NCBI RefSeq assembly: GCF_004402485.1 | Contig: NZ_SOFG01000009.1 | Span: 78,247-142,246 of the forward strand | DNA: 64,000 bases | DNA from: Cryobacterium algoricola | GTDB lineage: Bacteria; Actinomycetota; Actinomycetes; Actinomycetales; Microbacteriaceae | Direction: 5' to 3' | Part shown: positions 39,807 through 39,893 of the stretch, piece after piece | Position numbering within the stretch: position 1 is the first letter of the stretch | Layout of the letters: each line of letters opens with the position of its first letter | Position numbers and translations under genes: made by a program | The notes under the pieces: generated by a model | Seen by the model: only the letters and a program-made list of their open reading frames with translations | What the model was told of the DNA's origin: nothing | Databases searched by the model: none

Positions 39807-39812
39807 TAGCAT
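39807..39812 (+). promoter_or_regulatory. Candidate -10 of the leuA leader transcript
   Basis: TAGCAT, six bases, then the GTG of the leader peptide at 39819. The spacing puts +1 on the first base of the leader peptide. Confidence 0.5.
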
Positions 39813-39818
39813 TCCCTT

Positions 39819-39863
39819 GTGTTGTTCGGTCAGCTCCTCCTTCGCTGCCGCGACGAGTCCTAA
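39819..39863 (+). CDS. leuA leader peptide (attenuator peptide)
   Basis: A 14-codon frame reading MLFGQLLLRCRDES and stopping at TAA 39861-39863. It contains three consecutive leucine codons (CTC CTC CTT) plus a TTG second codon. The leucine run ends six bases before the terminator stem, and the stop codon lies in that stem's loop. This layout is that of leucine-dependent transcription attenuation before leuA, a mechanism predicted for several Actinobacteria. The GTG sits six bases after a TAGCAT hexamer, so the peptide may be translated from a leaderless 5' end. Confidence 0.72.
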   Translation: MLFGQLLLRCRDES

Positions 39864-39893
39864 TCTGAGGCCTCCCTCGTCGCGGCGTTTGTT
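39846..39893 (+). terminator. leuA attenuator stem-loop
   Basis: CCGCGACGAG (39848-39857) pairs perfectly with CTCGTCGCGG (39876-39885), extended by another G-C and a G-U pair, and is followed by TTTGTTGTT. The left arm overlaps the end of the leader peptide. A ribosome on the leucine codons could affect folding. I could not define the competing antiterminator. Confidence 0.75.

Follow-up and report, generated by a model that had tools for sequence, protein, structure and literature searches.

Attenuators of the trp and leu type of Escherichia coli are composed of a short leader with a run of codons for an amino acid, a Shine-Dalgarno (SD) sequence for that leader, and a hairpin with a U-tract. 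An early study of leuA leader mutants in Streptomyces coelicolor reportedly terms its own results paradoxical in the title, and leaderless poly-cysteine attenuators of mycobacteria are said to have been described by Canestrari et al. in 2020. In these mycobacterial attenuators a leaderless short ORF likewise senses an amino acid, this being cysteine and not leucine, and we know of no LEU pseudoknot among them. PMC13236596 credits Canestrari et al. with translation attenuation in M. smegmatis.

The actinobacterial LEU element, reported by Seliverstov et al. in 2005 from a survey that included Leifsonia xyli (PMC1262725), has three parts: a leader in which Leu codons form a run, a pseudoknot, and pairing of these codons with the SD of leuA in a base stem. 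Its authors considered codon sensing unlikely and prefer a regulatory protein binding the pseudoknot, naming the orthologues of ML1624; leaderless starts are not discussed. The element was reported for leuA only (in addition to one transposase), and the text holds neither elements preceding leuC or leuB-ilvE nor a Val/Ile recoding. As told in the same paper, the S. coelicolor leuA leader mutants had effects unlike those of classical attenuation.

In the part of PMC8079986 that is available, the leader leuL1 (MRFGLLLLSCRGEGL) preceding leuA in Streptomyces lividans TK24, a member of a different order from the organism of the current work, is reported to be transcribed leaderless and to be without a typical terminator, the mechanism being left untouched there; leaderless leader peptides, even before leuA, have therefore already been published and are not new. 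For Corynebacterium glutamicum, transcription attenuation at leuA is spoken of in PMC3890552 and PMC6892785. In the latter, a (p)ppGpp-free strain starved for 5 min showed a joint increase of leuA and its leader leuL, a result which does not decide between levels of control. The LEU element has been listed since 2005, and an agreed mechanism was not found in the literature searched.

Organization of the leader upstream of leuA

The window analyzed in the current work, being a stretch of 64,000 nucleotides from Cryobacterium algoricola, a member of the Microbacteriaceae as is Leifsonia xyli, contains upstream of leuA a leader whose features are listed in Table 1. This leader is the LEU element of Seliverstov et al. 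(PMC1262725), with which it has in common the Leu run, a candidate pseudoknot, the base stem, the lack of an obvious terminator, the actinobacterial host and the position before leuA; in the window, the leader ORF with its Leu-codon run is present, and the base stem between Leu codons and leuA SD appears in the minimum free energy (MFE) structure. Both the LEU element and a leaderless start for it had been reported before. The leuA product scores above the cut-offs of both NCBIfam models given in Table 1, and the leader carries an extra Leu codon (TTG) as its codon 2.

Table 1 Features of the leuA leader region (positions within the window).
Feature	Positions	Strand	Basis or remarks
-10-like hexamer TAGCAT	39807..39812	+	sequence
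Predicted leaderless leader ORF MLFGQLLLRCRDES plus stop	39819..39863	+	start GTG 39819; stop TAA 39861-39863
Predicted transcription start	39819	+	judged from the hexamer-to-start gap
Sensor Leu codons CTC CTC CTT, doubling as predicted SD-pairing strand	39834..39842	+	sequence, MFE
Stem P2, 5' strand GCCGCGACGAG	39847..39857	+	covariation, sequence
Stem P2, 3' strand CTCGTCGCGGC	39876..39886	+	perfect 11-bp complement; 11/11 pairs in MFE
Candidate pseudoknot, 5' strand GGCC	39869..39872	+	4 bp in Cryobacterium, up to at least 7 bp elsewhere
Candidate pseudoknot, 3' strand GGCT	39897..39900	+	class-wide alignment
Small hairpin GTTGG-CTATC-CCAAC, sharing bases with the 3' strand of the pseudoknot	39894..39908	+	MFE
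leuA SD region (GAGGAG 39915-39920, AGC before)	39912..39920	+	MFE pairing with the Leu-codon run
leuA, 2-isopropylmalate synthase, target gene	39930..41702	+	ORF; NCBIfam NF002991 and TIGR00970

A preliminary description of this locus, made from the sequence alone, is confirmed as right in all essentials: the three adjacent Leu codons of the leader peptide, the GTG located six bases past TAGCAT, and the leader stop codon within the loop of the stem are found exactly at the positions in Table 1. The stem is perfect as claimed, its length being 11 bp rather than 10, while the tract following it is T-rich (7 T in 12 bases) with a longest run of only 3, and the distance from position 39893 to the leuA ATG at 39930 amounts to 36 bases instead of 37.

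The leader RNA of the window folds with -48.3 kcal/mol, compared with a mean of -34.6 for 200 shuffled sequences (z = -4.19). In the MFE structure the Leu-codon run (39837-39841 and 39843-39846) pairs with the SD region through nine pairs with one bulged base. The first bases of the leader (39819-39831) also pair, in this structure, with 39926-39942 around the leuA start codon. The small hairpin, noted in this branch of the genus, is present in L001-L003 and in a changed form in L030, and may compete with the 3' strand of the pseudoknot.

Conservation of the element and covariation of its helices

With a cut-off of E 0.001, a covariance model built from 23 leuA leaders matched 366 of 394 class genomes and 192 of 199 family genomes. 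In the phylum 23 of 198 genomes were matched, 17 of them inside the class and 6 outside. Good element matches outside the class include G808:C34:10778-10849 and G729:C191:4089-4160, both of which carry the family label f67. Exact copies of a 52-base core occur in Cryobacterium glucosi and Cryobacterium breve (family Microbacteriaceae). Rfam returned no match in the region at the gathering score, and its two matches at E up to 5 (E 2.8 and 3) are at chance level. Prior to any counting, the L001 near copies L002 and L003, the L152 copy L153, and the weak, chance-like matches L203 and L205 were dropped; another two loci, out of 55, were missed by the script pattern and 53 were retained.

The helices were assessed in 100 aligned elements, representing a selection among those collected, with the elements whose P2 has fewer than nine pairs (L192, L193, L199, L055) being excluded from the pseudoknot and stem tests. 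Over ten pairs, P2 was paired in 99.5% of 1000 cells, both sides had changed in five of the ten pairs, and 80 double-change cells were counted against 26.6 in shuffles, which provides the stem covariation in relatives that had been proposed as a check. The pseudoknot, evaluated as a seven-pair helix, was paired in 83.5% of cells compared with 29-42% when slid, and its double-change cells numbered 21 as compared with 9.3 for shuffled data. Of five measures, two did not rise above the shuffles across the 100 elements, and covariation of this helix is weaker than that of P2. Support for this candidate pseudoknot, which crosses the internal stem, was found across the class. Within the genus, a pseudoknot swap test gave no signal, the four base pairs of GGCC with GGCT being invariant there and overlapped by the hairpin. 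The first 24 alignment columns, which open with the sensor codons and close with the P2 5' strand, are gap-free in 98 of the 100 elements.

A predicted leaderless start for the leader peptide

A TANNNT hexamer is located 5-11 nt ahead of an in-frame leader start codon in 144 of 144 elements examined, any leader ATG or GTG in the reading frame being accepted as start, while control windows of equal width placed farther upstream contained this hexamer in 23, 4, 2, 3, 1 and 0 of the 144. The geometry is retained in 110/110 elements upon removal of the 34 genus leaders (a term used here and below for leuA leaders from within the genus; three more same-genus elements, L056, L093 and L098, are among the other 110). 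The gap between hexamer and start is 5-8 nt in 113 of the 144, the commonest gaps being 6 and 7. An SD-like 5-mer precedes only 1 of 113 leaders as compared with 91 of 113 target genes (L192, L193, L199 and L204 being left out of the leader tests). Since so narrow a gap from a -10-like hexamer would make transcription begin on the start codon or just a few bases ahead of it, the leader RNA probably begins there, and the suggestion that leuA is preceded by a leucine-sensing leader with a leaderless start is borne out at the level of prediction.

Predicted pairing of the Leu codons with the leuA SD

In a swap test with the SD anchored on the start codon, the Leu codons paired more strongly with their own SD region than with swapped partners (-10.35 versus -9.04 kcal/mol; p=0.0004, n=106, a set in which the target start codons were script-chosen for best SD and are wrong in some of the leuB cases included); of the two swap controls, one was null (p=0.53) and the other reversed (own weaker, p=0.037). 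Use of one element per family, with leuB rows excluded, gave -11.18 versus -9.77 kcal/mol over 41 families (median Wilcoxon p=0.042, worst draw p=0.14; 0/5000 permutations in the last draw), the family-level control of sensor against the sequence after the start reaching permutation p values down to 0.03. An earlier swap test, in which an unanchored 66-nt stretch and wobble pairs were used, yielded p=0.11. CTG in the sensor was not associated with CAG in the SD region (15/29 versus 27/64, p=0.50), in an SD window that ended 4 bases before the start and cut off some CAGs.

Compensation is seen in individual elements, the third base of a Leu codon being altered together with the SD region in L152 (CTG-CTC-CTT with AAGGAGCAG), L165 (CTC-CTG-CTT with AAGCAGGAG) and L221; furthermore, CTC-ATC pairs with GATGAG in L104 of a leuB operon, and CTTCCCA with TGGGAAG in L171. 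Among 94 leuA/leuC elements, CTT occupies the third sensor position in 81 and CTC in 13, L001 alone representing the genus leuA leaders in these counts, and CTT makes up 2.9% of the 2927 Leu codons in the corresponding target genes. The support for Leu:SD pairing is modest.

Modelled folding with a ribosome on the leader

The leader stop codon follows the P2 5' strand at a median distance of 4 nt (at most 12 nt in 109 of 112 elements), and at so short a distance P2 should not form when a ribosome is positioned at the stop. With a ribosome footprint of assumed size, the modelled probability of P2 (n=112) was 0.84 with the ribosome at the first Leu codon (Leu1), 0.31 at Leu2, 0.03 at Leu3 and 0.02 at the stop codon. 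A leader in which P2 forms upon a Leu1 stall and is lost at the stop would have a P2 terminator acting during starvation, which is the wrong sign.

Accessibility of the leuA SD was modelled with the same assumption on footprint size, the pseudoknot being omitted from this folding model. In the window it was 0.00 for the free RNA, 0.44, 0.32 and 0.21 for stalls at Leu1, Leu2 and Leu3, and 0.00 once the ribosome stood on the stop codon; the corresponding means over 108 elements (leuB rows excluded) were 0.20, then 0.38, 0.32 and 0.27, and 0.24. Accessibility was higher for the Leu2 stall than for the stop in 71 of these 108 (p=0.0002) and not so in 37, and without the 34 genus leaders (n=74) the changes are small, with 0.25 for free RNA, 0.33 at Leu2 and 0.29 at the stop.

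Copies of the element upstream of leuC, leuB-ilvE and other genes

The genome to which the window belongs contains a second element, located before leuC (G000:C21:599082-599150, L093), the next best match having E=0.042. Two copies, the one upstream of leuA and the other upstream of leuC, were likewise found in 10 of 10 other genomes of the family, these representing ten genera with one genome each and having been picked for two strong matches among the matches listed. Elements on the leuC side comprise L093, L094-L096, L098 and ten of L222-L241.

In other families, 14 elements precede a leuB operon (L104, L105, L106, L107, L110, L150, L155, L171, L175, L186, L187, L194, L202 and L206), with leuB seen in 13 and ilvE in 12, L106 being assigned to this group by its small ORF. 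Val or Ile is present among the three sensor codons in 14/14 of these leuB-type elements versus 1/93 leuA/leuC elements, L001 again standing in for the genus leuA leaders, with sensor stretches that mix Val, Ile and Leu (VLVLI, SVRIL, QVVIL, IFVL and similar); the 14 may share one ancestor and are not to be read as 14 independent events. An exact complement of at least 6 bases to the sensor strand was absent from the 84 nt downstream in 10 of the 14, from which it follows that SD sequestration is not the whole story of this scaffold, and 79 of 93 pseudoknot cells of the leuB-type elements still pair.

A small ORF lies between element and leuB at the 14 loci (from base 99 of the element start in L150 and from base 173 in L107, for example), mostly with an end resembling DRRDNGGE or PDDN; five examples of it had no match in Pfam or NCBIfam. 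Elements also occur before leuA-like genes that are about 47-54% identical to leuA of the window (L102, L181, L183, L185, L188, L189, L190, L191, L195, L197, L198, L200 and L201), and several of these genomes possess another element before a closer leuA. A gene with 26-27% identity to leuA, at a guess perhaps encoding a citramalate synthase, stands behind the element in L169, L174 and L177; in L169 and L174, leuB comes next.

LEU elements before leuC or leuB-ilvE were not seen in the literature searched, most subscription papers being outside this search. Of these, the Val/Ile-recoded copies are the part worth following.

Discussion

The LEU element of leuA is likely to represent a ribosome-gated translational attenuator that is launched from a leaderless leader peptide. 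Its sequence, conservation, leaderless promoter geometry and P2 covariation have been observed here, as has the recoding of related elements at other genes; more weakly, the pseudoknot and the Leu:SD stem covary as well. Transcription start, stalling, SD opening and control at the level of translation, as we infer them, would take the following course. RNA polymerase would initiate on the GTG or no more than a few bases from it, and a ribosome would load at the RNA 5' end and read the leader. In the free RNA, P2 and the pseudoknot would place the Leu-codon run CUCCUCCUU opposite GAGGAG, the SD of leuA, and with these two paired leuA would be poorly translated. Under a shortage of charged Leu-tRNA the ribosome would wait on the Leu codons, thereby covering the anti-SD and opening the leuA SD, while with plentiful leucine it would reach the stop codon and leave, so that the Leu codons become free and the SD is closed again. 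Because the waiting ribosome would cover those same Leu codons that pair with the SD, the codons would be sensor and anti-SD in one.

Classic transcription attenuation, spoken of for leuA by the C. glutamicum authors (PMC3890552 and PMC6892785), would have P2 and the T-rich stretch act as an intrinsic terminator forming when leucine is plentiful, and it agrees with the GC-rich, perfect 11-bp stem and the 7 T in the next 12 bases of the window as well as with the mean T content of these 12 bases (5.2 in the 34 genus leaders versus 3.4 in the other 110 elements). It is nevertheless unlikely, given that a T run longer than 3 follows P2 in 0/34 genus leaders and a run of at least 4 in only 3/110 other elements, and that the modelled P2 probability (0.02 at the stop versus 0.84 at Leu1) has the wrong sign. 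A terminator scan found none, with loops restricted to 3-8 nt and hence blind to the 18-nt loop of P2, and leuL1 of S. lividans is reported to be without a typical terminator (PMC8079986). The codon run in a short leader is shared with the E. coli trp/leu type, while the leader SD and U-tract hairpin of that type are lacking here: the GC-rich hairpin of the window is followed by no U run (longest T run 3), and P2 has a modelled probability of 0.00 with the ribosome at the leader stop codon. Based on the T-run counts and the ribosome-footprint folding, an intrinsic terminator was rejected as the leucine-controlled step, and the role of the stem as such a terminator, which had been proposed in the preliminary description, was not upheld.

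That the pseudoknot is the binding site of a regulatory protein, for which the ML1624 orthologues have been named, with a secondary role for the leader peptide, was argued by the authors of PMC1262725 and is in keeping with the strong conservation of P2, the conservation of the pseudoknot and its persistence in leuB-type elements (79/93 cells), most of which are without SD pairing; we judge it distinctly improbable, since such a site requires neither the recoding to Val/Ile sensors (14/14 leuB-type elements, 12 of the 14 with ilvE, versus 1/93) nor the leaderless start that is kept in 144/144 elements. Highly improbable is a pseudoknot that brakes the entry of mRNA into the ribosome while the sensor is decoded, with an output through Rho or transcript decay in place of the SD: the spacing of sensor codons and P2 5' strand, gap-free in 98/100 elements, a modelled P2 that survives a ribosome at Leu1 and is lost with one at Leu3, and the absence of SD pairing from 10/14 leuB-type elements speak for it, and the Leu:SD compensation in leuA elements against it. 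It is conceivable, and we put this forward tentatively, that one leaderless-started scaffold has been copied to leuA, leuC and leuB-ilvE within actinobacterial genomes and recoded for leucine alone or for all three branched-chain amino acids, resulting in a ribosome-read branched-chain regulon; the sensor codons would serve as anti-SD at leuA and leuC, and the pseudoknot would meet the reading ribosome and act as a brake in copies without SD pairing.

Under the translational attenuator favored here, any codon mutant would alter sensor and lock together, and the dual role of the Leu codons as sensor and SD-hiding strand may therefore offer a reason for the odd, paradoxical S. coelicolor mutants. 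The Val/Ile-recoded copy before leuB-ilvE provides natural evidence for codons being read as sensors. If this reading is true, leaderless translation would, in one large bacterial class, carry a great part of the response to leucine.
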